From Bacteroidales bacterium (GTDB taxonomy: Bacteria > Bacteroidota > Bacteroidia > Bacteroidales > AUK083), in NCBI GenBank assembly GCA_021158345.1, contig JAGGUV010000179.1:1-33384 (forward strand): a stretch of 33,384 bases of DNA, written 5' to 3'. This document shows positions 1 through 13,650 of the stretch, piece after piece. Every line of letters starts with the position of its first letter. The first letter of the stretch is position 1. The notes below the pieces were generated by a model that had not been told where the DNA came from, did no database searches, and worked only from the letters and a program-made list of their open reading frames with translations. A program made the position numbers and the translations under genes.

Positions 1-1147
1 TATTATTACCTTTAAATAAATTATAAGCATTATCAATAAAACCAAATGAAAAATTAGAAAGATTACATTCTGTTGCCAGTAAAACAATTACATCTGTATT
101 AATTATTGATTGATAGAGATTCAGGTCTTGAACTTCTTTAGGTTTTTTTTGCCCCTTTACTAAAGGGTATTCTTTTTTATTATAATACCAAAAATTATTT
201 TTACGGAAAAGTTTTTTTGGTAAACCTGACATAAAAATACCCCAATAATAACTATCAGCGACAGAAAGAAGATTTAATTTTTTATTTTCTGAATTTTCTT
301 CAACCTTAAATTTGGGATAAGCCATATTATCATGTGGCATTTCCCATAAAAGGTTCATTGTTTGTTCAATGTCATATTCTCCTGATTTTATATCGTTTGA
401 TATTCTTACTCCATTCCAATGAATATGAGGAAGTTTTGTTTTATGAACTTCTTCAATATAATTTATTAATGAATCTGTACATAATAGCATTCCATAATTA
501 CTCCAATGAGTTCCACATTTTGAATATAATGGATATCTTGATGTATCCTTTATTTTTGTGAAATAAGTGTTAAAATCAATATAATTAAGTTTTAGTTCAT
601 CTGATATTTTAATAAAATTATCAAAATTTGTAGTCTCATTATTTTTTATTTTATATGAATCCGGAATATATTCCGGGTAAAAACGTGCTTTGCTAGGGGC
701 ATAAACAAGTATAAGATCTGTATTATTCTTTTTAAGAGTGTCTTGTAGAAATTTTGCTTTTAATAAAAGATTTTTAATTTTATTATTTCCAATAAAGTCA
801 TCACCCTTTAAACTTAGTATATATTTTTCTTCATATAAATAGCCATCTTTTCCAATAATAATATCATCTGCATTAGAAATATTGAAAAATGAATAATCGA
901 TTTGATTTTGTATTCTTATCAGTATTTTTCTAAAACCAATATGTTGTTCAATAGCATCGTTAAATTTTTTTTGGAAATCACCCTCTAACCATGATTTTAA
1001 TTTCATGTCTTTAATTGAGGGTTGAGAAGCAAGAATATATGCACCCTTTAATTTCCGTATATTAAAAAAGTGAAATTGTTTTTGTAATTCCGGAAGTACA
1101 AGCGTTAAAATTATTAATATGTATAAACTTACTTTTAATTTCTTCAT
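1..1147 (-). CDS. AlgJ/AlgX-like SGNH acyltransferase, C-terminus cut by window edge
   Basis: This reading frame starts with ATG at 1147 and stays open for 382 codons to the window edge, so its stop lies outside. It begins with a short positive N-terminus and one hydrophobic segment (about residues 5-20), suggesting a membrane-anchored periplasmic protein. The body resembles the AlgJ/AlgX family, which transfers acetyl groups to exported polysaccharide: a GTHWSNYG motif at 212-219 and an ADSYYW motif at 297-302 match the family's His and Ser motifs, and ATECNL at 358-363 is also typical of these proteins. The usual catalytic Asp two residues before the His (DTHW) is Gly here. It starts 5 bases after the MBOAT gene's stop, so the two are almost certainly co-transcribed and act as an acyl carrier/transferase pair. 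The acceptor polymer is unknown. The family call is firm, the substrate is not. Confidence 0.82.
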   Translation of the reverse strand, partial: MKKLKVSLYILIILTLVLPELQKQFHFFNIRKLKGAYILASQPSIKDMKLKSWLEGDFQKKFNDAIEQHIGFRKILIRIQNQIDYSFFNISNADDIIIGKDGYLYEEKYILSLKGDDFIGNNKIKNLLLKAKFLQDTLKKNNTDLILVYAPSKARFYPEYIPDSYKIKNNETTNFDNFIKISDELKLNYIDFNTYFTKIKDTSRYPLYSKCGTHWSNYGMLLCTDSLINYIEEVHKTKLPHIHWNGVRISNDIKSGEYDIEQTMNLLWEMPHDNMAYPKFKVEENSENKKLNLLSVADSYYWGIFMSGLPKKLFRKNNFWYYNKKEYPLVKGQKKPKEVQDLNLYQSIINTDVIVLLATECNLSNFSFGFIDNAYNLFKGNN

Positions 1148-1152
1148 TTGTT

Positions 1153-2577
1153 TTAAAATCTAAAATAAATGAATGGATTGAAACCTGAAGAAGTAATTGC
1201 TGATAAACTTATAATAAACATAATTATTGAAGAAATTACCATAATTATTATTGTTTTATTATTTTGTTTTTTATCAAAAAGTCGAACTTGCCAGTCTTCG
1301 ATTTTTTTAAAACTACCCCAAAACGAGAAGAAAATAGCAATAATGAGTATAGTAAAAAATTTTAGATTGAAATTGAAATCTGTTGCCATGAATTTAAATT
1401 CAAACATTTTGCTCATAAAACCAAAGGCATGAGTAAGATTGTCAGATCTAAACAACACCCAGCCAATAATTACAATAAAAAATGTGATTATAGTGCTTGG
1501 AATTTTACCTATGCGTTTATAAAATTTTAAAAGGAACATTCTATCAGCAATAAGAAAAATACCGTGAAAAGCACCCCAGAGGACAAAATTCCATGCAGCG
1601 CCATGCCATAATCCCGAAACAAGAAATACAAACCAAAGGTTAAAATATAGTCTTACAGGTTTTACTCTGTTGCCACCCAAAGGGATATATAAATAGTCTT
1701 TCATAAACCTGCCAAGTGTCATATGCCAGCGACGCCAGAATTCGCTTATGCTTCGTGAAATATATGGATTATTGAAGTTCTCGGGAAAATCAAAACCTAT
1801 CATTCTGCCTATTCCAATAGCCATATCTGAATAACCTGCAAAATCAAAGTATATCTGAAAAGTATAGGCCAGCGTTCCTAACCATGCTATGCCTGATGTA
1901 ACTTCGTTTGGCGACATGGCAAATATTTTATCAGCCTCTTCGCCTAAAACATTTGCTATTAAAACTTTTTTAGCTAACCCAAGAGTAAATCTAAAAAAAC
2001 CTGTTAATTTATTATCAATATTTTCATTCCATTTTCTATCTTCAATTTGGTCAGCTATTTCGTTAAATCTAACAATAGGTCCGGCAATTAATTGAGGAAA
2101 CATTAAAATATATAAAGCATAGTCGCTAATTTTTTTTAGTGGCGAATGAACTTTTCTGTATACATCAACAGAATAAGTTAATTTTTGAAATGAAAAAAAT
2201 GAAATTCCTATAGGTAAAGCTACTTTAGTCCAGGCAACTGAAGTACATCCAAAATTATTTAAAATAGCATTTAAATTTTCAACAAAGAAATTTGCATATT
2301 TAAAATATGCTAGCAAACCTATATTTAAAATTACAGATAAAGAAATAAGAATATTTTTTTTATTCCCGGGTTTTGTCTTATTCATTTTTTCTACAAGGTA
2401 GAAATCAATAATAATAGATGCCAAAACTATAAAAATAAATTTTGGAGCTCCCCAGGAATAAAAAAATATGCTTGCAATTAATGCAAAAATATTTTTGTAT
2501 TTTGTATTAATTAAACTGTAAATTATTAAAAATACAGGTAAAAAATACAAAAGGAATAAACTTGAACTAAATACCAT
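1153..2577 (-). CDS. MBOAT family membrane O-acyltransferase (AlgI-like)
   Basis: The 474-residue protein is a polytopic membrane protein of normal length for the AlgI/PatA/DltB branch of MBOAT acyltransferases. These move acyl groups across the inner membrane for transfer to polymers outside. Visible family motifs are AGPIVRFNEI (165-174), FWRRWHMTLGRFMKDY (280-295, His285) and GLWHGAAWN (322-330, His325, the position of the conserved MBOAT histidine). The start is ATG at 2577, 10 bases after the VTC gene's stop, and the AlgJ-like gene follows 5 bases after its own stop. Pairing of MBOAT with an SGNH protein is the standard alginate or cellulose acetylation arrangement. Here the pair shares a transcription unit with a polyphosphate polymerase domain rather than with recognisable alginate genes, so the acceptor may be a different polymer. 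Function as an acyltransferase is well supported; the substrate is inference. Confidence 0.92.
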   Translation of the reverse strand: MVFSSSLFLLYFLPVFLIIYSLINTKYKNIFALIASIFFYSWGAPKFIFIVLASIIIDFYLVEKMNKTKPGNKKNILISLSVILNIGLLAYFKYANFFVENLNAILNNFGCTSVAWTKVALPIGISFFSFQKLTYSVDVYRKVHSPLKKISDYALYILMFPQLIAGPIVRFNEIADQIEDRKWNENIDNKLTGFFRFTLGLAKKVLIANVLGEEADKIFAMSPNEVTSGIAWLGTLAYTFQIYFDFAGYSDMAIGIGRMIGFDFPENFNNPYISRSISEFWRRWHMTLGRFMKDYLYIPLGGNRVKPVRLYFNLWFVFLVSGLWHGAAWNFVLWGAFHGIFLIADRMFLLKFYKRIGKIPSTIITFFIVIIGWVLFRSDNLTHAFGFMSKMFEFKFMATDFNFNLKFFTILIIAIFFSFWGSFKKIEDWQVRLFDKKQNNKTIIIMVISSIIMFIISLSAITSSGFNPFIYFRF

Positions 2578-2587
2578 TTAATTTTTT

Positions 2588-3295
2588 TTAAATAGCTATA
2601 TTTAAATGAAATTTTTCTATACCATTTACATATTTTGAGCTTTTTGTCATTCTAAAAGGCAAATTATTAGTAATAAAATCCGCTTTATTATCTTTATTAT
2701 TTTCGTATTTTAGCTCAACTACATTGTCAATATAATTAATATCGTGTTTAATAAAATTATTGTTTCTTCTTGAGATATCGTGATATTCCAGATCGGTATC
2801 AATAGTAAGCCTGAAATTTTTGTCTATTGTCTGAAAATATTTTCTTGAATAACGGTTAAGCAGGGTGGGTTCTAATGTTAAAATTTCGTCCATAACCCGA
2901 TCAGGCAAATCCGATTTTTTGAATATATTTTTTAATAAATCAATATTAAAATTTTTATCTAAAACAAAAGGTTTTAAGAAGAATGAGTGTTTATCGCCAA
3001 CAGCCCCTGTTTTTAATTTAAACTCCAGTATAGGATGTTCAATATATCCAAGTAAATCGCCATACCATCTGATACGAACTTTTTTTCTATGGCTTTTCCC
3101 AACATTATTATCAATATACGACATTAAATTGTGTGAGTCGAGATAAATATTATTAATATATCTCTCATGATATATTTCTGAAAAAGCAGCAGGATGTGCT
3201 CTTACAATTTGTTCTATATTTGCTTTTGAGAGCTGGGATACAACAAATTTACGTTCATATCTGCTTTTTTTTAATGCTGTATATTCATTAGCCAT
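2588..3295 (-). CDS. VTC domain protein (polyphosphate polymerase domain)
   Basis: This 235-residue protein is essentially one VTC domain, the triphosphate-tunnel fold that in yeast Vtc4 polymerises polyphosphate from ATP. The charged strands lining the tunnel are visible: RYERKF (12-17), NIYLDS (49-54), KVRIRWYG (72-79), LEFKLK (90-95), LNRYSRKYF (146-154), TIDTDLEY (164-171), VVELKY (192-197) and KSSKY (218-222). No SPX domain or membrane segment is present, unlike eukaryotic VTC subunits. The frame could open three codons earlier at a TTG (3304), but ATG at 3295 is the likelier start and leaves 18 bases after the upstream gene. It sits between the DUF4956 membrane protein and MBOAT genes, so the membrane protein may provide the anchor or export path. 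Fold assignment is firm; polyphosphate as the actual product is inferred from the family. Confidence 0.88.
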   Translation of the reverse strand: MANEYTALKKSRYERKFVVSQLSKANIEQIVRAHPAAFSEIYHERYINNIYLDSHNLMSYIDNNVGKSHRKKVRIRWYGDLLGYIEHPILEFKLKTGAVGDKHSFFLKPFVLDKNFNIDLLKNIFKKSDLPDRVMDEILTLEPTLLNRYSRKYFQTIDKNFRLTIDTDLEYHDISRRNNNFIKHDINYIDNVVELKYENNKDNKADFITNNLPFRMTKSSKYVNGIEKFHLNIAI

Positions 3296-3313
3296 AATCA
3301 ACAAAAAAATTTA

Positions 3314-3994
3314 TTAATAACTTTTATTGTCGATAAATGTAACTTTAATATTATCGTGTAATTTTTGTAATTCTTCTTTACACTTTTGAATTTTTTCAGT
3401 TTTATCAATTTCAACTAAAAAAGAAGCTTCAATAATATTGTCACCTTCGTCGAAACGTTTTAGCTCTGAAGTTTTAAAATTTTCTTTTACAATTTTAATA
3501 ATATCATTTAATTGTATTGATTTAGAGCTGTTTCCTGATACTGTAAAATAAAGGTTCTGGCTTTCGTTTTTATGTGATATGAAATATCTTGCCCAAACAA
3601 TTATAAGCATAACAAAAAATGCTACCACAACAATCACTCTTTGATTAGCACCTAATCCCAAACCTATTGAAATTGCAAAAAACAAATATGCCAGTTCTTC
3701 AGGCTCTTTTATGGCAGCTCTGAAACGAACTATTGATAATGCACCTACTAATCCTAATGATAATGCTAAGGATGATTTTACTATAGAAATTATAAGCATT
3801 GTTGTAAAGGCAATTAATAAAAAGTTTGCTGAGAATGTTTTTCTATTCGACAAGCTTTTTGCACATTTTGTATATGTGCGTTCTAATAATAATGAAAGTA
3901 TTATTATTATTACTGAATTTATAATAAAATCACTAACAGAAACTTGTGCACTTTCAGTAATTAAAAATTTTTGAAATAAACTCCATTTTCCCAT
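3314..3994 (-). CDS. DUF4956 family membrane protein
   Basis: The 226-residue protein has about four hydrophobic segments (roughly 22-38, 57-72, 78-115 as one long or two short segments, and 119-138). Between them lies the family's signature GLVGALSIVRFRAAIKEPEE (81-100), followed by AYLFFAISIGLGLGA (102-116). The last 85 residues are soluble, with an alternating strand-helix pattern that could be a small ACT-like regulatory domain. No biochemical function is established for DUF4956 that I know of. It is first in a tight operon ahead of the VTC polymerase domain, and a good promoter lies just upstream. My inference is that it is the membrane partner of the VTC protein, perhaps anchoring it or passing its product across the membrane, as membrane subunits do in the yeast VTC complex. 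The start is ATG at 3994. Confidence 0.88.
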   Translation of the reverse strand: MGKWSLFQKFLITESAQVSVSDFIINSVIIIILSLLLERTYTKCAKSLSNRKTFSANFLLIAFTTMLIISIVKSSLALSLGLVGALSIVRFRAAIKEPEELAYLFFAISIGLGLGANQRVIVVVAFFVMLIIVWARYFISHKNESQNLYFTVSGNSSKSIQLNDIIKIVKENFKTSELKRFDEGDNIIEASFLVEIDKTEKIQKCKEELQKLHDNIKVTFIDNKSY

Positions 3995-4018
3995 ATTATC
4001 GTTTTTTTAATTTGTTTG

Positions 4019-4048
4019 CAAAAATAATTTTAATTTATAGATTACAAA
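4019..4048 (-). promoter_or_regulatory. Promoter of the DUF4956-VTC-MBOAT-AlgJ operon
   Basis: Read on the minus strand, TATTTTTG (4026-4019) matches the Bacteroidota -7 element TAnnTTTG exactly and lies 24 bases before the DUF4956 ATG. A TTTG (4048-4045) sits 18 bases upstream, close to the expected -33 position. A second TATTTTTG overlaps it at 4052-4045. This suggests the operon is transcribed independently of the CotH-like gene 124 bases upstream. Confidence 0.5.
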
Positions 4049-4118
4049 AATATTTTCATTCTTTCTTAATTTAGTCAATATTTAAAATTGTCACAGATTC
4101 ACAGATTATAATTTTTTT

Positions 4119-7100
4119 TTATTTATTGTAGAAAATATCTGCAACATCTTTTTTGTCTCCCGGTATTTGTTTTTGGTTTAAATTTAATAACGAATTTGTT
4201 TCTATCAGATATAAAGTATCATTATTATTATAAGTTATTTTTTTTGCAATAATAGTAGCAGGGCCATATTCAGGCTTTTTCTGAAAAGCAGTAAATGCAT
4301 ATTTGCAATTTTTTATTTTAGATGATTTTATTTCAACTAATGACAAATCTTTTGATGCAACACCGATATTGCAATTATTAATATTAGTATTTGACACTGA
4401 TAGTGTTGAATTTTCGCCACCACTTATCCCTTTATCATTAATATTGTTGATATTACAATTTTCAATATTTATTTTGCTGCCTGAAAAGTCTACTGCATCA
4501 TTGCCGATTTTTGTGAATTTTGTATTTTTTACTATTCCTGTACTAAAGTCAGAGTCAAAAGCATCTGCAAAAGTATTATAGAATTCGCAATTGTCAATAA
4601 TAAAATCCGAACGTACAATGTTTAACTGGTCATCGCAGGCTTTATTGTTTTTTAATGTTGTGTTATAGATTTCAACATTAGATTCATAAAAACAAACAGC
4701 AGCTGTTAAAGCCCAGCCTTTGTAATTGAGTCTGCTTAAATTATCGAATATTGCATTTTTAACAATAGATCTTCCTCCTGCCTGCAATACGTTAAAGCCC
4801 ATTGCCGAGCTGTCGCTAGAATATATTTTAACGGGATTTTGTTTTGTGCCGAGAATATAAACAGGTGAATATGAAAGAAAACCTCCTTTATTTATGAAGT
4901 CAATTTCAGCACCTTGTTCAAATTTTACTTTATAATTTTTCGGAATAATAATAAATTCATTAACAATATGTTTTCCTTTTTTAAAGAGAATTGTATTATT
5001 TTTTAAAATCGTATAAGCTTTATTTTCAGGGAAAGTAGATTTTGCCATAAGCTCTTGCAAAGGTGTAGAAGCATAAGGCGAATTCCATTGAAAAATATCT
5101 GTGGTAAAAGTTTTGAAATGCCCTTTTACCATAAAAAATAAATATTTTGCTGTTGTGTCTGAATCAACTTCAATAGGTTTGTTTTCAGGATTATTATACG
5201 AGCAGATGTTTGGTTCGGGATGAAAGAAATAATTAATTTTCCTTTTATTTTTTCCTGTCCCAAGTATAATAATGTCGTTTGGATAATAATTATAGATTTT
5301 AATTATTGAATGATTTTTTGTATTTTCCTTTTTTTCTATGAATGCGTTCACATAATATTCAGGGAAGCCCTCGTAATATATAGTGTCGTAGGTTTTCTCG
5401 TTAGTTTGGAATTTTTTATAGTTTTCAGCATAATGCGGATTATCCCTGAATTTCTTTTTATATGCAGGTAAATCTTCTCTTATGGCTTTAGCATTTTTTA
5501 ATAAAAATAATGAGTCGAAATGATAATATTGAAATTCTTGTCTGATTAAATTTTCGTACTTATTAATTTCAGGTTTAAATTCTGACAAAATATTTTTAAT
5601 GTAATTTTCGTCAGAATATTTTTCAAGATAATGGATATAAAGTTTAACAAAACTGGTATCAGTAAAAAGATTATAACGCATAGTTGCTCTAATAGTTTTG
5701 TTTTGATCAAAATCTGAATTTGCAGCAATAGCACGATGAACAAAGTCAAAAGGACCGCCTTCGGTGTAGCAATCGAAAAGAATAGGCTCTAGTTTACAAG
5801 TAACCGGATTATAATAAAATCGTTGATTATGAAAAATAAATCCATGATAGCCTTTTGTTAAATCTATTAAAGCAAAATATTTTGCCATCAGATTAACATC
5901 AAAAATCTCAGAAGCAGATTTTAATCTGTTTTTATATTCAAAATACAAATTTTGTGCTATTAAAAATTCTTGTTTTAATACTGGAGATTCAATCGTTTTG
6001 TTTTGTTTAAAAGGCAAAATGTCTGAAGCATCAAAATAAGGTAATTTATAGAATTTGTTTTTTGTTTTACTGAGTTTTTGTATTGCCCACAAACCATAAT
6101 CAGATAATTTTAGTATAGGTCCTTCTCTACGGTTTTTAGCTTCTACCAATTGTTTTTCAAAATGTTCCTCATAAGCATATAATCCCAGACTTTTATTGTT
6201 TAATATTACAGGGACAAAATCGTAACGTGGAGTTAAAAGATCTTCTTTCTCATATATTTTGTGAGCCAGATATCCTTTTAAAAAATCTCTTGTAACAGGA
6301 TTTTGTATAGAGAATGTTTTAAGGTTTTTCCATGATTTATTTTTCCTGATTTTTATTCTAAAAGACCATTTTTTCCCATGGAGATGGTCAAGCCAATCGC
6401 CTTTTAATCTTACTTTGGCTTTCATCATATCTTCTCCGTAGAATATCATTGCCTTAACCCAATCATCATCAGCAGTTTCAAGAACACCATTTTTAAATGC
6501 AATATCACGTTTTTTGTATAATTTTAGCATGTCAAGGGTGTCAATAAATATCCTCAAAGATTTTTCTTTGAATCTCGGATATACTTTTTCAGGTAATTTT
6601 TCTATTGTTAAATCATCAAAATATGCAGGCTCTTTGTCAGGATTCCACATATAAATTTTTATGTATTCGTTTCTAATACAATGAGGTATTTCAACATCTG
6701 CCTGTAACATCTCCCAGCCATTTTTTTCTGTTTTCACAGGCTTACGTATTGGTACGTAGAATTTTTCTGCTGTTTTATCTGCAATTACAAGTATGCCTTT
6801 GTTGTTTTTGCTTTTTCTCCATACAGTAATTTTATAATAATCGCCGGCTTGAACATTATTTATTTTATATGAAAAAGTATAAGGATGTTTTTTATTTATT
6901 TTTGCCGAAAATTTCCCTGAATGCGCAGCTTCTTTGCTTCGAGTATATGCTCCTGAAAAAAATTCATTATCTTTAACAGAGATAAAAAATTTCTTATCTT
7001 TGCTAAGAATTTCTGCATTACATATTATTTTTTTATTTAATTTTAATGAGCTTTTTTGTTTACAGCTAAAAGATATTATTAATATTAAAAAAATAAAAGA

Positions 7101-7145
7101 TAAAGCAGTTATAATTTTTTTTAAATTATATTTTGTCTTTGTCAT
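4119..7145 (-). CDS. CotH kinase-like surface lipoprotein with C-terminal beta-helix
   Basis: This 1008-residue protein is an apparent lipoprotein: a hydrophobic signal ends in SFSC with Cys28 as the lipidation site. Residues about 65-185 look like a carbohydrate-binding-type beta sandwich (HSGKFSAKI, then GDYYKITVWRKS and FDDLTIEK). Residues about 195-500 are CotH-like: RLKGDW (246-251), SFRIKI (261-266), GLYAYEEHFEK (321-331), DLTKGYHGFIFHN (428-440, the probable catalytic loop) and LFDCY (456-460, the position of the metal-binding Asp). CotH of Bacillus is an atypical kinase that phosphorylates a spore-coat protein. Residues about 735-950 form a right-handed beta-helix with repeated short Asn-rich strands, a fold common in polysaccharide-binding or -cleaving proteins. 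CotH genes recur near VTC and DUF4956 genes, as here. A phosphotransfer role on a surface polymer or protein is inference. Confidence 0.85.
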   Translation of the reverse strand: MTKTKYNLKKIITALSFIFLILIISFSCKQKSSLKLNKKIICNAEILSKDKKFFISVKDNEFFSGAYTRSKEAAHSGKFSAKINKKHPYTFSYKINNVQAGDYYKITVWRKSKNNKGILVIADKTAEKFYVPIRKPVKTEKNGWEMLQADVEIPHCIRNEYIKIYMWNPDKEPAYFDDLTIEKLPEKVYPRFKEKSLRIFIDTLDMLKLYKKRDIAFKNGVLETADDDWVKAMIFYGEDMMKAKVRLKGDWLDHLHGKKWSFRIKIRKNKSWKNLKTFSIQNPVTRDFLKGYLAHKIYEKEDLLTPRYDFVPVILNNKSLGLYAYEEHFEKQLVEAKNRREGPILKLSDYGLWAIQKLSKTKNKFYKLPYFDASDILPFKQNKTIESPVLKQEFLIAQNLYFEYKNRLKSASEIFDVNLMAKYFALIDLTKGYHGFIFHNQRFYYNPVTCKLEPILFDCYTEGGPFDFVHRAIAANSDFDQNKTIRATMRYNLFTDTSFVKLYIHYLEKYSDENYIKNILSEFKPEINKYENLIRQEFQYYHFDSLFLLKNAKAIREDLPAYKKKFRDNPHYAENYKKFQTNEKTYDTIYYEGFPEYYVNAFIEKKENTKNHSIIKIYNYYPNDIIILGTGKNKRKINYFFHPEPNICSYNNPENKPIEVDSDTTAKYLFFMVKGHFKTFTTDIFQWNSPYASTPLQELMAKSTFPENKAYTILKNNTILFKKGKHIVNEFIIIPKNYKVKFEQGAEIDFINKGGFLSYSPVYILGTKQNPVKIYSSDSSAMGFNVLQAGGRSIVKNAIFDNLSRLNYKGWALTAAVCFYESNVEIYNTTLKNNKACDDQLNIVRSDFIIDNCEFYNTFADAFDSDFSTGIVKNTKFTKIGNDAVDFSGSKINIENCNINNINDKGISGGENSTLSVSNTNINNCNIGVASKDLSLVEIKSSKIKNCKYAFTAFQKKPEYGPATIIAKKITYNNNDTLYLIETNSLLNLNQKQIPGDKKDVADIFYNK

Positions 7146-7234: not shown

Positions 7235-8698
7235 ATGAGGGTAATTTATTTATTTTTTGTATTTATTTTGATTTCAATTAAAATAATTGCACAAAATTTT
7301 CCTGGAAGAGTTATTGGAGGTACTGAAGATGATAATGGTGTGTCTTTTTGTATGTCAGATGATGGAAATTATATCATTGTAGGTGATACTAAAAGTCAGG
7401 GACAAGGCAGTACTGATGTTTATATAAGTAAAATAGATAGTTTTGGAAATAAAATATGGTCAAAAGTTTATGGCTCTGTACACCAGGATTATGCTATGTC
7501 AATTATTAGAACTTCAGATAATGCATATCTTGTTTTAGGATATTCCTGGGATTTTGGTTTTTGGAATGAAGATATGCATCTTATAAAAATTGATGAGAAT
7601 GGTGATAAGCTCTGGGATAAATATTATGGTGACTATCAAAGAGATCAGGGATTTTCTATTAAAGAATTAAATGATGGTGGATATATTTTAATTGGTTATT
7701 CAAAAAGTTTTGAACCTAGAGGCGATTTTTATGTAGTACGTATTGATTGTTTAGGTGATGAACTTTGGTCGAATAATTATGGAACAAATTATGTTGATTA
7801 CGGTTTTGATGTTTTAGAAACTGATGAGGGCTTTATCTTGCTTGGAACTGCAGGAGGTTTTTATAATCCTGTTCAGGCTGATTTTAAAAGTCATGATGCT
7901 GACGTTTTGATGATTAAAATTGATAAAAATGGTAGTGAAATTTGGAGGAAAACTTATGGCGGAAATCAGCATGATTTTGGAAATGCTATTTTAGCTGCTG
8001 CTGATGGATATTATATTTTAGGGTCTACTCAAAGTGAGGGAAACGGAAGTTTTGATATTATGTTGATGAAAGTGGATAAATCGGGTAATAAACTTTGGTC
8101 AAAAACTTATGGTAATAAAAGTTTCGATTATGGTTATTCCTTTGATATTACTTCTGATACTTGTTTATATCTTTTAGGTGCTACTGATAATTCAGACATT
8201 GGAAATTCTATTGACATGTATTTAATTAAATCTGATATGTCAGGAAAAATAATCTGGGAAATGTCTATTGGAGGTACAGGTTCAGAATATGGCTATTCTG
8301 TCAGAGCTACAGAGGATAGTGGATGCGTTTTAATTGGGAATACAAATTCTTATGGTAATGGTAACAATGATATTTATTTTTTGAGACTTGATAAAGATGG
8401 AAACTTGTTAATTTTTAATGATATTGCTGATACAATTACAGATAAATTTTATGCTTCTGTTTATCCTAACCCAATGAATAATAAAGCAATATTTGATGTT
8501 AAACCTAATAATTTTGCTTCTTCGTATGAATTTAAATTATTTGATATTAAAGGAAATTTAGTGAGACATTATTCAGTAATAAATGCAAATAAGTTTGATT
8601 TTAATAGAAATACTTTAAAGTCGGGTATTTATATTTATACTATTAGTTTGAAAAATAAACCGGAACAAATTATCAGAGGTAAATTAATTATTAAGTAA
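7235..8698 (+). CDS. Secreted seven-bladed propeller protein with T9SS type A sorting domain
   Basis: The 487-residue protein starts with a signal peptide (hydrophobic 4-18, cut near IIAQ-N). Residues 25-395 hold about seven repeats of roughly 50 residues, each with a glycine-rich G-x-T/S turn, then D-(V/I)-x-(L/I)-x-K-(I/V)-D and ending in patterns such as GNKIWSKVYG (71-80), GDKLWDKYYG (123-132), GSEIWRKTYG (233-242) and GNKLWSKTYG (284-293). This is the pattern of a beta-propeller. Residues 407-487 are a type A T9SS C-terminal domain: SVYPNP (408-413), KLFDIKGNLVR (434-444), LKSGIYIYTI (461-470). The protein should therefore be exported by T9SS to the cell surface or medium. The propeller's ligand cannot be told. 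It is divergent from the CotH-like gene, and its last 15 bases overlap the end of the gene on the other strand. Confidence 0.9.
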   Translation: MRVIYLFFVFILISIKIIAQNFPGRVIGGTEDDNGVSFCMSDDGNYIIVGDTKSQGQGSTDVYISKIDSFGNKIWSKVYGSVHQDYAMSIIRTSDNAYLVLGYSWDFGFWNEDMHLIKIDENGDKLWDKYYGDYQRDQGFSIKELNDGGYILIGYSKSFEPRGDFYVVRIDCLGDELWSNNYGTNYVDYGFDVLETDEGFILLGTAGGFYNPVQADFKSHDADVLMIKIDKNGSEIWRKTYGGNQHDFGNAILAAADGYYILGSTQSEGNGSFDIMLMKVDKSGNKLWSKTYGNKSFDYGYSFDITSDTCLYLLGATDNSDIGNSIDMYLIKSDMSGKIIWEMSIGGTGSEYGYSVRATEDSGCVLIGNTNSYGNGNNDIYFLRLDKDGNLLIFNDIADTITDKFYASVYPNPMNNKAIFDVKPNNFASSYEFKLFDIKGNLVRHYSVINANKFDFNRNTLKSGIYIYTISLKNKPEQIIRGKLIIK

Positions 8699-9577
8699 TT
8701 TTTGTTGCTTTTGAACATTTAATAAAGAATCCAGGTTTTGAAATTCCCATGTTATTTTTTGTTCAGATAAAATATGATTAAAAATAAGTACAACATCAGT
8801 GGGTTCATTGCATAATCCGCATCCCATAAAATTAATGCTGTCAACAGATTGCATAAAGAATTTTTTGCCATTGCATCCCATATCTCCCAGAATACAATAA
8901 ATTTCAATGCCTCTTTTTTTTACTTTTTTTAGTAAAGGATAAACTACTTCAGCAAAAGAAGTGTTTACAGAATCGCAATTGGCATTCCAATAAATAAGAT
9001 CGCTATGTGCATAGGTGCCAGGTGGAGGTAAGTTTGGCACATTACGCCATATTCCATGATGCATTATCATAAATAAATAAGAAGATTTTGTAATTGTATC
9101 ACATACATTTTTGATTATGTTAAATTGGTTATTTAAATTTTCACAATCACTGGGTACTAAATTTGTGTTTAATACAATTGCAGTTATCCCATCTTGATAA
9201 TGTGCAAAATATGTTTTTCTATGCGTAAATTCACTAATCCAGTTATAATTTCTATTTCTGGCATCATGATTGCCTAATGCCCAATAATTACCTGGCTTTG
9301 ATAAATCAAAAATACTGTCAAGGTATTGTAGTGTAGAGTAGTCTTGGGTAGTCTCAGTACAAACATCACCACCTAACCAAATTCTGTCGTATTTTGTTTT
9401 GTCGAGTTCTTCAATACGTGGGTCAATTTTGTATTTACTTTTAGTGGGATTTACTTTTTTTATATGCCCGGTAAAAAAATAATGTAAAGTATCGCTATTA
9501 ATTTTAGAGTGATTTTGAGAGTATGTATATGTTATTGTCAATAGAATAACAAGAAAAGTAACAGAGATTTTTTTCAT
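8684..9577 (-). CDS. Exported metallophosphoesterase-like protein with altered metal motifs
   Basis: This 297-residue protein has a signal peptide (cut near TYS-Q, residues 20/21) and the core of a calcineurin-like phosphoesterase: GGDVC (69-73), GNHDAR (102-107) and MHHGIW (172-177). Two motifs deviate. The first DxH reads TGH (36-38), losing the Asp, and the last GHxH reads GDMG (231-234), losing the His. It may keep one metal site, have an altered specificity, or be inactive; the sequence cannot decide. Several cysteines are present, including a cluster near 228-260, unusual for a small exported protein of this kind. No sorting domain is present. It converges on the T9SS propeller gene with overlapping 3' ends and has its own start at ATG 9577. 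Family membership is fairly sure; activity is not. Confidence 0.78.
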   Translation of the reverse strand: MKKISVTFLVILLTITYTYSQNHSKINSDTLHYFFTGHIKKVNPTKSKYKIDPRIEELDKTKYDRIWLGGDVCTETTQDYSTLQYLDSIFDLSKPGNYWALGNHDARNRNYNWISEFTHRKTYFAHYQDGITAIVLNTNLVPSDCENLNNQFNIIKNVCDTITKSSYLFMIMHHGIWRNVPNLPPPGTYAHSDLIYWNANCDSVNTSFAEVVYPLLKKVKKRGIEIYCILGDMGCNGKKFFMQSVDSINFMGCGLCNEPTDVVLIFNHILSEQKITWEFQNLDSLLNVQKQQKLLNN

Positions 9578-9672: not shown

Positions 9673-11919
9673 TTAAAACACTTCCATATCAGTATCTGAA
9701 TTAGTATTGTTTTCTTCATCATATTTATCACAATCAATTTCAACAGATAAAGGTGTTAAAGGTTTTTCAAAGTCTCCCTTAGAAATATTAAGAGTTGAGT
9801 CGGCATAAATTTTTTTCATATAAATAGCCCAGATAGGCAGAGCCATATTAGCGCCTTGTCCTAAACGGATAGTTCTGAAATGCACGCTTCTGTCTTCACA
9901 GCCAGTCCATACTCCTGTAACAAGGTCTGGAGTTATACCCATAAACCAGCCGTCGGAATTGTTTTGTGTAGTTCCTGTTTTCCCGGCTATGGGGTTATTC
10001 AAATGATATTTGTATCTTAACCTGATTCCTGTACCGCTTTGTACAACACCTTTTAACAGACTGAGCATAAGATAAGCAGTCTCTTCCGACATAGCTTCAT
10101 TTTGTTTCGTAGTAAATTTTTCAATAATATTACCACGTTTATCTGCAATTTGTTTAATAAATAATGGTTTAATATATATGCCTTTACTTGCAAAAGTGTT
10201 CATTGCAGCAGTCATTTCGTATAAAGAAATATCGGGTGTGCCAAGGCATATAGAAGGAACAGGTGCAATATAGCTTGTAATGCCCATTTTTCTAGCCATT
10301 TTAATAACATTTAACGGTGTATAGCGTTTTATCAGATATGCTGATATCCAATTATTTGAATTTGCCAGTGCCCATTTCAGACTAACCATTTCGCCTAATC
10401 TTTTCTTGGAGTCGTTTCTTGGTGCCCATGTTTCGCCTGATGGCAAATCAATAACGGGTTGTATGTTAGGAACTTTTGTACATGGTGATTCTCCTTCCTG
10501 CATTGCCAGAGAATAAAGGAATGGTTTAAATGTTGAACCTACCTGACGTTTTCCCTGTGTAACATGATCGTATTTAAAATATTTGTAGTCAATACCTCCA
10601 ACGTATGCCCTGACAAATCCAGTACCTGGTTCTATTGACATTAAACCCGACTGTATAAAATATTTATAATATTTTATTGAATCCATAGGACTCATAACTG
10701 TATCAATATCTCCATGCCATGAGAACACTTGCATTTTTACAGGTGTATTAAAAACTTTATTAATAGAATCTTCAGAAACATTATTTTTTACTAAATGTTT
10801 ATATCTGCTGGTTCTGTGCATTGCCTGCATTAATATTGTGTCAATTTTACCCTGAGTAAATTCCTGCTCAAAAGGGGCTTTATCATAACCTTCCCAATGT
10901 TTAAAAAAAACATCTTGTAATTCTCCACCTAAATGTTCTTTTATGGCTTCTTCGGCATATTCCTGCATTTTGTAGTTGATAGTGGTATATATTTTTAAGC
11001 CGTCTTTAAACAAATTATATTCACTGCCATCAGCTTTGTAATGAGTTTTACACCATTGTTTTAATTGTTTTTTCAGGTATTCTCTAAAATATGTGGCTAA
11101 GCCTGTGTTATGATCTTGTATTTTGTATCTTGACATATCAATAGGAATATTGATAACAGAGTCATAGACTTCTTTTTTTATAAAATTACATTTCATCATT
11201 CGATTCAAAACAAGATTTCTTCTTTTTAAGGCATTATTTGGGTTTCTTACAGGACTGTATCTTGTAGGAGCATTAACAATACCCACCAATAAAGCAGCTT
11301 CTTCTATTTTAAGCTCCATAGGAGTGGAGTTGAAAAATGTTTTAGCAGCAGATTTTATTCCAAATGATTGACTGCCAAAATCAACAGTATTAAAATACAT
11401 GGCAATAATTTCGTCTTTGGTATAATTTCTTTCAAGTTTTACAGCAGTAATCCATTCTTTGAATTTTCGTAGAATAAATTTAGGCTTGGAAAGATTTTCG
11501 CCTCTTGGAAACAAGTTTTTGGCAAGTTGTTGGGTTATTGTGCTTCCTCCTCCTTTATGTTTCCCTGATATTAATCCATAAGCAACTCTTAATATTGCTT
11601 TTGCGTCAATACCTGAATGTTGCCTAAAACGAACATCTTCTATTGCTATTAAGGAATTAACAAGGTTGGGAGATAAATCCGAATAGTGTATGTTTGAACG
11701 ATTTTCAATATAAAATTTACCAAGTATTTTATTGTCTGACGAATATATTTCAGATGCTAAATTACTTTTAGGGTTTTCTAATTCTTCAAAACTAGGCATA
11801 AATCCAAACCAACCGGCAGAGATTCCTGTAAAAAATATTATTATTGAAGTAAGTAGAAGAATAAATATTATCCATAATGTTGTTATAGATTTTCTATAAT
11901 TTTTCTTCTCTTTTGCCAT
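9673..11919 (-). CDS. mrcA: Penicillin-binding protein 1A, bifunctional glycosyltransferase/transpeptidase
   Basis: The protein polymerises and cross-links peptidoglycan in the periplasm, anchored by one N-terminal membrane segment (12-33). The GT51 glycosyltransferase domain (about 55-230) shows EDVRFRQHSG (94-103) with its catalytic Glu, GGGSTITQQLAKNLFPRG (123-140) and KDEIIAMYFN (168-177). The transpeptidase domain (about 425-700) has STFK (462-465) with the acylated Ser, SNN (521-523) and KTGTT (647-651). At 748 residues the length is normal for class A PBPs of this phylum. The C-terminus is short and acidic. The gene is third in the ricT-gldH-PBP1A order seen across Bacteroidota, 99 bases after gldH. 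I saw no clear promoter in that gap, so read-through from ricT is likely. The start is ATG at 11919. Confidence 0.96.
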   Translation of the reverse strand: MAKEKKNYRKSITTLWIIFILLLTSIIIFFTGISAGWFGFMPSFEELENPKSNLASEIYSSDNKILGKFYIENRSNIHYSDLSPNLVNSLIAIEDVRFRQHSGIDAKAILRVAYGLISGKHKGGGSTITQQLAKNLFPRGENLSKPKFILRKFKEWITAVKLERNYTKDEIIAMYFNTVDFGSQSFGIKSAAKTFFNSTPMELKIEEAALLVGIVNAPTRYSPVRNPNNALKRRNLVLNRMMKCNFIKKEVYDSVINIPIDMSRYKIQDHNTGLATYFREYLKKQLKQWCKTHYKADGSEYNLFKDGLKIYTTINYKMQEYAEEAIKEHLGGELQDVFFKHWEGYDKAPFEQEFTQGKIDTILMQAMHRTSRYKHLVKNNVSEDSINKVFNTPVKMQVFSWHGDIDTVMSPMDSIKYYKYFIQSGLMSIEPGTGFVRAYVGGIDYKYFKYDHVTQGKRQVGSTFKPFLYSLAMQEGESPCTKVPNIQPVIDLPSGETWAPRNDSKKRLGEMVSLKWALANSNNWISAYLIKRYTPLNVIKMARKMGITSYIAPVPSICLGTPDISLYEMTAAMNTFASKGIYIKPLFIKQIADKRGNIIEKFTTKQNEAMSEETAYLMLSLLKGVVQSGTGIRLRYKYHLNNPIAGKTGTTQNNSDGWFMGITPDLVTGVWTGCEDRSVHFRTIRLGQGANMALPIWAIYMKKIYADSTLNISKGDFEKPLTPLSVEIDCDKYDEENNTNSDTDMEVF

Positions 11920-12018
11920 TTTAATAAAATTTGTTTTTTTAAATTATATCTTTAAATATTAAAACTTTGTTTTTATTTAATTATTACATAATGTACTGAC
12001 TTTCTTTATAGATAGATA

Positions 12019-12486
12019 CTAATTAGATTTTTTTATTGTAATGCCAATATTTTTAATGCCATTAAGATTTCGTGTGCGCATAGCCTGTTGTATTTCAAAA
12101 GAATAAACACCTTTTTGTAGAAATTTTATTTTTCTTTTTAATAAATAGGAGTTGCTTTTTACTTTTCCGATACCGCTGCCATACCATTTGCCTTTTTTAT
12201 CAGATAATAAACATTCAACAGTATCTTGTGTGTGGTTTCCGTCAGGAAATTTTGTGTCTATAAAGAAATAAATATTTGAATATTTGTAATCTGTTGTATT
12301 TCTGAGGTTAAGATAAAAATCAAAATAATTTATGGTGTCTTCTACTGTAACATTAAAAATTGCAGTGCTGTCTGTGTTCCATACACTGTTATTTATTTCA
12401 ATATTTTTATCATAAAAAATATTTGAAGTACAAGAGAATAATATTATACTTATTGTAAGGATAAATAAATTTTTTTTAATAACCAT
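12019..12486 (-). CDS. gldH: Gliding motility-associated lipoprotein GldH
   Basis: The 155-residue product carries a lipoprotein signal (hydrophobic 6-17, lipidated Cys19 in LFSC). The rest is a small beta-rich domain with the GldH pattern: FYDKNIEI near the N-terminus, VTVEDTINYFDFYLNLRN in the middle, FFIDTKFPDG, and GVYSFEIQQAMR near the end. GldH was defined as a lipoprotein needed for gliding in Flavobacterium and is widely kept in Bacteroidota, including non-gliders. Its molecular role is not established. Its ATG overlaps the last 11 bases of ricT, so the two are translationally coupled. Position between ricT and PBP1A matches the conserved order and supports the identification. Confidence 0.88.
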   Translation of the reverse strand: MVIKKNLFILTISIILFSCTSNIFYDKNIEINNSVWNTDSTAIFNVTVEDTINYFDFYLNLRNTTDYKYSNIYFFIDTKFPDGNHTQDTVECLLSDKKGKWYGSGIGKVKSNSYLLKRKIKFLQKGVYSFEIQQAMRTRNLNGIKNIGITIKKSN

Positions 12487-13621
12487 TATTTTTTTTATTC
12501 TTTTTTTTATTTTTAGTTTTATTAAATCTGTCTAAATCAGAGATTTCAGAAAAGTTTTTAAAATCAATTATTTCATCTTCAACTGTTTCAACAAAGTTTT
12601 CGAGTTTTTCAGGCTTTTTATTTTCGGAATTTAATTTTATAATTTTTTTAACATTATTAAGTTTAATAGGGTGCATTACCCCGGGTTCATCAACGTAAGA
12701 ATACCATAATATTTTTTTAAATATATTAGCTTTTTGATAAACAGCATCTCCTTTTTTTGTTTTTAAAACAATATTTAATTCAGGAAATTGTTTAAGAGCA
12801 TCAATATACACAGGGTATTCAAAGTTAAGACAACATTTTAGTTTGCCGCATTGTCCTGTTAATTTTTGAGGATTTAATGATAGTTGTTGAGTTCTGGCAG
12901 CAGATGTACTAACAGATTTAAAATCAGTAAGCCAGGTAGAGCAACATAATTCTCTGCCACAAGGACCTATGCCGCCTATTCTGCATGCTTCCTGACGAAC
13001 TCCTATCTGTCTCATTTCTATATGTACTTTGAATTCTTCGGCATATCTTTTTATTAATTCTCTGAAGTCAACTCTTTCTTTTGCAGTATAATAAAAAGTT
13101 GCTTTAGCATTATTCCCTTGATATTCAACATCATTGATTTTCATATTTAGGTTTAACTCAGAAGCAATTTGTCTGGCTTTAATTTTTGTAGGTTCCTCTT
13201 CTTCTACTGCTAATATCCAATTTTCAATATCGTTTTGCCTTGCTTTGCGATAGACTTTTTTTATCTCTGAAGGATCAGGGATAACTTTTTTAGCTTTCAT
13301 TTGAAGTTTTACTAATTCTCCTGTCATTGATACAACGCCTATATCATGTCCCGGAGATGCTTCTACTGCTATAATATCGCCGATTTTCAAATTTAATTCT
13401 AAAGGTGCTTTATAAAAATCTTTTCTTGAATTTTTAAATCTAACTTCTATTATATCAAATGGAACTTTATTTTGTGGTAAAGGAATATCTTGTAACCAAT
13501 CATATGTGTCAAGCTTTGCACTTGTATGATGGAATGTACTTTTATCATCAGATTCATCTATTGGTGTTTGTATAAATCCCCTAGATAAAAAAGCATTATT
13601 TTTTTCCGAGTTATCTTGCAT
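12476..13621 (-). CDS. ricT: PSP1-domain protein RicT
   Basis: This 381-residue protein belongs to the PSP1/RicT (YaaT) family. In Bacillus RicT joins RicA and RicF in an iron-sulfur complex affecting RNA processing and development. The PSP1 C-terminal domain is seen around 110-200, followed by the family's cysteines: C213, C221 (IGPCGRELCC), C226, C227, then C258, C263 and C264 (GQCGKLKCC). The C-terminal tail is lysine- and asparagine-rich. The longest frame opens at a TTG (13645), but ATG at 13621 is preferred because that TTG lies inside a TAnnTTTG promoter element and the eight extra residues are not family-like. It heads the ricT-gldH-PBP1A group and overlaps gldH. Its role in Bacteroidota is not well defined. 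Confidence 0.9.
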   Translation of the reverse strand: MQDNSEKNNAFLSRGFIQTPIDESDDKSTFHHTSAKLDTYDWLQDIPLPQNKVPFDIIEVRFKNSRKDFYKAPLELNLKIGDIIAVEASPGHDIGVVSMTGELVKLQMKAKKVIPDPSEIKKVYRKARQNDIENWILAVEEEEPTKIKARQIASELNLNMKINDVEYQGNNAKATFYYTAKERVDFRELIKRYAEEFKVHIEMRQIGVRQEACRIGGIGPCGRELCCSTWLTDFKSVSTSAARTQQLSLNPQKLTGQCGKLKCCLNFEYPVYIDALKQFPELNIVLKTKKGDAVYQKANIFKKILWYSYVDEPGVMHPIKLNNVKKIIKLNSENKKPEKLENFVETVEDEIIDFKNFSEISDLDRFNKTKNKKKNKKNNGY

Positions 13622-13642
13622 AATTTTTTTTGTAATTTCCTG

Positions 13643-13650
13643 CAAAGGTA
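13643..13650 (-). promoter_or_regulatory. -7 promoter element of ricT
   Basis: On the minus strand this reads TACCTTTG, an exact TAnnTTTG match, 21 bases before the ATG at 13621. It overlaps the alternative TTG start at 13645, which argues against that start. No convincing -33 TTTG is visible. Confidence 0.45.

Follow-up and report, generated by a model that had tools for sequence, protein, structure and literature searches.

The window analysed here, a 33,384-nucleotide stretch of Bacteroidales DNA, begins with five adjacent minus-strand genes that we read as two neighbouring but separate envelope modules with the roles proposed below (probability roughly 0.6). One comprises a lipoprotein with a CotH kinase-like domain and a β-helix (CotH-beta), a DUF4956 membrane protein and a VTC-domain protein; the other comprises an MBOAT O-acyltransferase and two AlgJ-like SGNH proteins, the second of which is encoded on a different contig. 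The window is an entire contig (C71) of a draft genome in 190 contigs (G000), so its left edge is an assembly end. An initial annotation had named these families and their order, with kinase-like and β-helix domains in the lipoprotein, and open reading frame (ORF) calls and Pfam profile searches bear this out. It had further proposed that all five genes serve a single pathway, in which a polymer made or modified by the VTC protein is moved through the membrane, after which MBOAT/AlgJ acylate it and CotH phosphorylates it.

Gene neighbourhoods separate the two modules. The survey drew VTC loci from 149 genomes in the order and 395 in the phylum, and their neighbours were identified by profiles built up from the window proteins. 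It covers 57 loci, with some neighbourhoods shortened by contig ends and genes called by a simple ORF caller. DUF4956 was found within five genes of VTC in all 57, directly adjacent in 54 and always on the same strand, and CotH within five genes in 23. This strongly supports the statement in the initial annotation that VTC, DUF4956 and CotH are often neighbours, an association previously published for the Pel clusters of Gram-positives (PMC7112168). VTC and DUF4956 were also found in exactly the same three of 14 control genomes, and a contig scan with the VTC protein as sole query gave only three loci. MBOAT, in contrast, comes within five genes of VTC at just 2/57 loci, as does AlgJ. These are the window and G074, and their gene orders differ: in G074, MBOAT and AlgJ lie upstream of CotH, from which a gene on the opposite strand separates them. 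MBOAT/AlgJ is moreover widespread without VTC, with MBOAT present in 120/149 genomes of the order (E at most 1e-30). The orthologous MBOAT form (35/149 genomes at the analysis cut-off) occurs in 5/12 of the VTC genomes, a tie that is not significant (p = 0.12). The single five-gene pathway was rejected on this survey, whose outcome is one that the initial annotation had named as refuting it, and we consider the pathway improbable, even though the genes share a strand and are only 5-18 bases apart from DUF4956 to AlgJ, and even though the two modules are also close together in G074 and G082. The replacement of the catalytic Asp in CotH-beta and the presence of another likely glycan source beside the acylation genes, both described below, also speak against it.

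CotH-beta, in contrast to MBOAT, follows VTC across genomes. Within the order, 12 of the 149 genomes encode close relatives of VTC (E below 1e-50) and 15 encode CotH-beta (E at most 1e-75); 11 genomes have both, an overlap with a Fisher p of about 1e-12 that takes no account of relatedness. The two co-occur even on different contigs (G084, G098, G126), and in G088 CotH-beta adjoins a second, divergent VTC-DUF4956 pair.

The position of the modules in relatives offers an explanation for their adjacency. MBOAT-AlgJ directly adjoins PSP1-GldH-PBP1, without VTC between, in G075, G082 and G093. DUF4956-VTC adjoins the same three genes without MBOAT in G098 (directly), G013 (after two opposite-strand genes) and G097 (facing them), and both modules lie beside them in G074 and the window. 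The simplest reading is that one variable envelope-gene region beside PSP1-GldH-PBP1 receives both modules, which would be adjacent because both occupy it. An assembly or binning artefact, conceivable for a draft in so many contigs, has a next to negligible chance of explaining the adjacency: a single contig carries the genes, which are closely spaced and similar in GC content, and the reading frame runs on into the next contig, where the homology matches; G074 and G082 also carry both modules in the same region.

Table 1. Coordinates of window features and of domains within CotH-beta.
Feature	Position	Strand	Evidence or remark
AlgX/AlgJ-like SGNH protein, 3' end cut by contig end	1..1147	-	PF16822 4.8e-13
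MBOAT O-acyltransferase	1153..2577	-	PF03062 6.5e-35
VTC-domain protein	2588..3295	-	PF09359 2.2e-27
DUF4956 protein	3314..3994	-	PF16316 4.5e-14
CotH-beta lipoprotein (CotH + β-helix)	4119..7145	-	PF08757 40 bits (six-frame); PF13229 8.5e-9
CotH-beta, lipoprotein signal			LIISFSC
CotH-beta, domain of unknown function	residues ~40-185		
CotH-beta, CotH kinase-like domain	residues ~245-540		PF08757, six-frame search; 2.6e-10, cut-off 23.8 bits
CotH-beta, right-handed β-helix	residues ~750-990		PF13229 8.5e-9
Secreted β-propeller protein with type IX secretion system (T9SS) sorting domain	7235..8698	+	PF18962 6.7e-9
Calcineurin-like metallophosphoesterase	8684..9577	-	PF00149 1.3e-4
PBP1	9673-11919	-	housekeeping block 9673..13645
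GldH	12019-12486	-	housekeeping block 9673..13645
PSP1	12476-13645	-	housekeeping block 9673..13645

In transcription order, the gaps are 124 bases from CotH to DUF4956, 18 from DUF4956 to VTC, 10 from VTC to MBOAT and 5 from MBOAT to AlgJ. The 18-base gap is counted to the ATG at 3295, which is likely to be the VTC start rather than the TTG at 3304. The spacing of 5-18 bases reported initially thus holds for DUF4956-VTC-MBOAT-AlgJ and not for CotH, which stands 124 bases away. A candidate promoter in that longer gap, 5' of DUF4956 (TTTG-N18-TATTTTTG, 4019-4048), is at chance level, with 3 such matches against 4.2 expected, and generic promoter and terminator scans gave no informative signal.

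The VTC domain covers the whole of its protein (profile match 2-235 of 235). Using a VTC family profile, yeast Vtc4 (PDB 3g3q) was matched at 5e-20; searches of the PDB using single window sequences directly gave no match. The tunnel residues K16, R74, R76, E91, K93, K102, R151, E194 and K221 are invariant in 26 relatives and align with yeast Vtc4, presumably including the residues that are catalytic in the latter. Because these conserved residues line up with Vtc4, the VTC protein is probably an active enzyme, and it would be expected to make polyphosphate or a related phosphate polymer, probably from nucleoside triphosphates in the cytoplasm. PPK1 was not found in the draft genome G000 despite the presence of VTC, which is suggestive only. 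The idea that VTC is the only polyphosphate maker was set aside, as PPK1 occurs in 5/13 of the genomes searched for it and G000 is a draft.

The DUF4956 structure model has five predicted membrane helices followed by a C-terminal β-α-β-β-α-β domain that is ACT-like, with ACT domains among the Foldseek matches of the model. MgtC is matched weakly by 13/22 members of the family (best 8.9e-5). The data show how the genes are ordered, which families they belong to, which residues are conserved, that the trio co-occurs and that linkage to the acylation genes is lacking; the substrate, its export and the direction of movement are inferred. DUF4956, with an MgtC-like membrane part and an ACT sensor domain, would be the obligate membrane partner of VTC and most likely moves or gates its product. 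The same MgtC and ACT features lend themselves to a different interpretation, in which VTC is a triphosphate-binding enzyme that forms with DUF4956 a regulatory or phosphate-handling pair controlling envelope glycan synthesis, neither of them making polymer, and CotH-beta is an adhesin-like surface protein. Such a role would also suit the company kept by the trio, which accompanies glycan clusters: Pel in Gram-positives (PMC7112168) and a chitin-synthase-like glycosyltransferase in C. perfringens (PMC2879425). We regard it as a serious although somewhat unlikely alternative, since the catalytic residues of VTC are kept and neighbours in other clades suggest export. An HlyD-like protein lies within two genes of VTC-DUF4956 in 22/57 loci, in other Bacteroidota, and a DUF2490 outer-membrane barrel within three genes in 14/57; such neighbours fit an envelope-spanning system. 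The HlyD-like proteins form two clusters, and the cluster of 5 has a Pfam-supported representative. The larger one (cluster 7, ~355 residues; L042, L043, L044, L066-L086) directly precedes VTC-DUF4956 in ~17 loci.

CotH-beta, which would lie outside the cell, may bind or process the VTC product, or a surface polymer that this product modifies. Its CotH domain was above the cut-off in the six-frame profile search; hmmscan with the full-length protein did not recover the domain, although 5/7 orthologues were matched by hmmscan. The position of the catalytic Asp (B. subtilis D228) is a His in 17/19 CotH-beta proteins (H434 in the window), whereas the second essential Asp (B. subtilis D251) is kept in 17/19 (D458 in the window); a spacing of 23 between the paired Asp residues of PDB 5jd9 fits D228/D251. 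The B. subtilis CotH D228Q variant is inactive (PMC7821199). Elsewhere in the Bacteroidota, CotH proteins adjoining VTC mostly keep both Asp residues, and some carry T9SS sorting domains. Ordinary phosphorylation by CotH-beta is hence doubtful as judged from sequence, which weakens the initial proposal that the polymer is phosphorylated outside; because the catalytic Asp is a His, a binding or altered phosphotransfer protein is likelier than a normal kinase. One specific form of such transfer appears very improbable to us: VTC/DUF4956 would export polyphosphate, which CotH proteins at the surface, where they have no ATP, would use as substrate or as a source of phosphate, and the near-invariant His of CotH-beta in this Bacteroidales branch, perhaps as a phospho-His carrier, would phosphorylate a surface polymer that the β-helix holds.

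A second, canonical CotH is encoded elsewhere in the same genome (C74:19294-20181, 5.3e-70). The T9SS β-propeller gene adjoins CotH-beta in four genomes, namely the window and its relatives in G082, G074 and G064 (loci L111, L033, L109). In the same four genomes a secreted-type metallophosphoesterase shares loci with CotH-beta; a DNA search with this gene gave no relatives, which were found by protein comparison within the fetched loci. A phosphatase beside CotH-beta would fit a phosphate-polymer system.

The acylation module resembles a PatA/PatB-type system. The window MBOAT ends in FIYFRF, and an FIYFRF or FIYFQF end is present in 25/25 proteins compared; in PatA, the Tyr of such a C-terminal motif carries the acyl group (PMC12148441). 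In the AlgJ-like partners (window 1-1147; L123:203-1504; relatives), GxH replaces DxH (GIHWS/GTHWS), with the His and Ser kept. The D193A substitution in PaAlgJ abolishes alginate acetylation (PMC4148444), and catalysis throughout this AlgJ-like family may rely on a dyad or on a different acid. MBOAT-AlgJ-AlgJ would thus be predicted to move acyl groups onto an envelope glycan by a Tyr shuttle.

Contig C115 (L123) of the same genome continues the left end of the window, with the AlgJ tail in frame and an overlap of 10 exact bases with C71. The second AlgJ (PF16822 3.6e-11) follows 4 bases after the first, and beyond it lies a facing pair of genes for a 619-residue PMT-like membrane protein and a GT2 glycosyltransferase (PF00535 3.9e-32). 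The 619-residue protein has no Pfam match itself and is called PMT-like from its opening sequence, compared with PMT-type proteins of relatives. A glycosyltransferase pair of lipid-linked type therefore adjoins the acylation genes. The same order is seen in G082, where MBOAT and AlgJ are followed by facing genes for GT2 and a PMT_2 protein, and GT2/PMT-type genes are near MBOAT-AlgJ in several relatives. The acylated glycan is most likely built by this facing pair, as opposed to being the VTC product. The initial annotation had named a polysaccharide synthase just left of the window as an alternative source for the acylation substrate; the facing pair supports this in part, while no processive synthase was found beside the acylation genes on the window or the continuing contig.

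Several observations weigh against two separate modules or against the roles assigned to them. The gaps of 5-18 bases from DUF4956 to AlgJ make co-transcription likely in the window, and both modules lie within ~ten genes of each other in the three nearest genomes that have both (the window, G074 and G082), so some functional tie between them may exist. The structure model of the CotH domain is too poor (predicted local distance difference test score 38), and no fold search was made from it. The larger HlyD-like cluster was assigned by reading the sequences, its only Pfam match being a weak one to SHOCT.

In every Bacteroidota locus sampled VTC and DUF4956 occur together, and the pair follows CotH proteins, which suggests a dedicated bacterial system for phosphate-polymer export or control; the literature searched contained no experimental test of a VTC-DUF4956 system. 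The Asp to His exchange in the CotH-beta branch bears on the question of whether every secreted relative of CotH is a kinase. Setting the acylation pair apart guards against inferring an incorrect pathway from the adjacency of the genes.

The CotH-DUF4956-VTC trio is already known, and the β-helix-fused CotH with an altered active site is the new detail. In Gram-positives, CotH, a polyphosphate polymerase and DUF4956 are accessory genes of pelDEA(DA)FG clusters (PMC7112168); the same three families are contiguous there and tied to an exopolysaccharide. The window differs in phylum and in having CotH fused to a β-helix in a lipoprotein, without the catalytic Asp, and no Pel families were found among the window genes or the scanned parts of C115. 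In the C. perfringens NELoc-2 locus, VTC domain genes are near CotH and a glycosyltransferase (PMC2879425), and membrane neighbours of 222-226 residues are probably DUF4956. That locus differs in its duplicated VTC pair and its chitin-synthase-like glycosyltransferase, with no β-helix fusion reported. Yeast Vtc4 (PDB 3g3q, 5iiq) has the same tunnel domain, including its conserved basic residues and metal-binding Glu, whereas the window protein is free-standing, with 235 residues and neither an SPX nor a VTC1-type membrane domain; DUF4956 would take the membrane role. Finally, the PatA/PatB and AlgI/AlgJ/AlgX pairs (PMC12148441, PMC4148444) likewise combine an MBOAT bearing the C-terminal FIYFRF shuttle motif with an SGNH partner retaining His and Ser, from which the window system is set apart by a Gly in place of the triad Asp, by two AlgJ copies and by having neither an alginate nor a cellulose synthase beside it.

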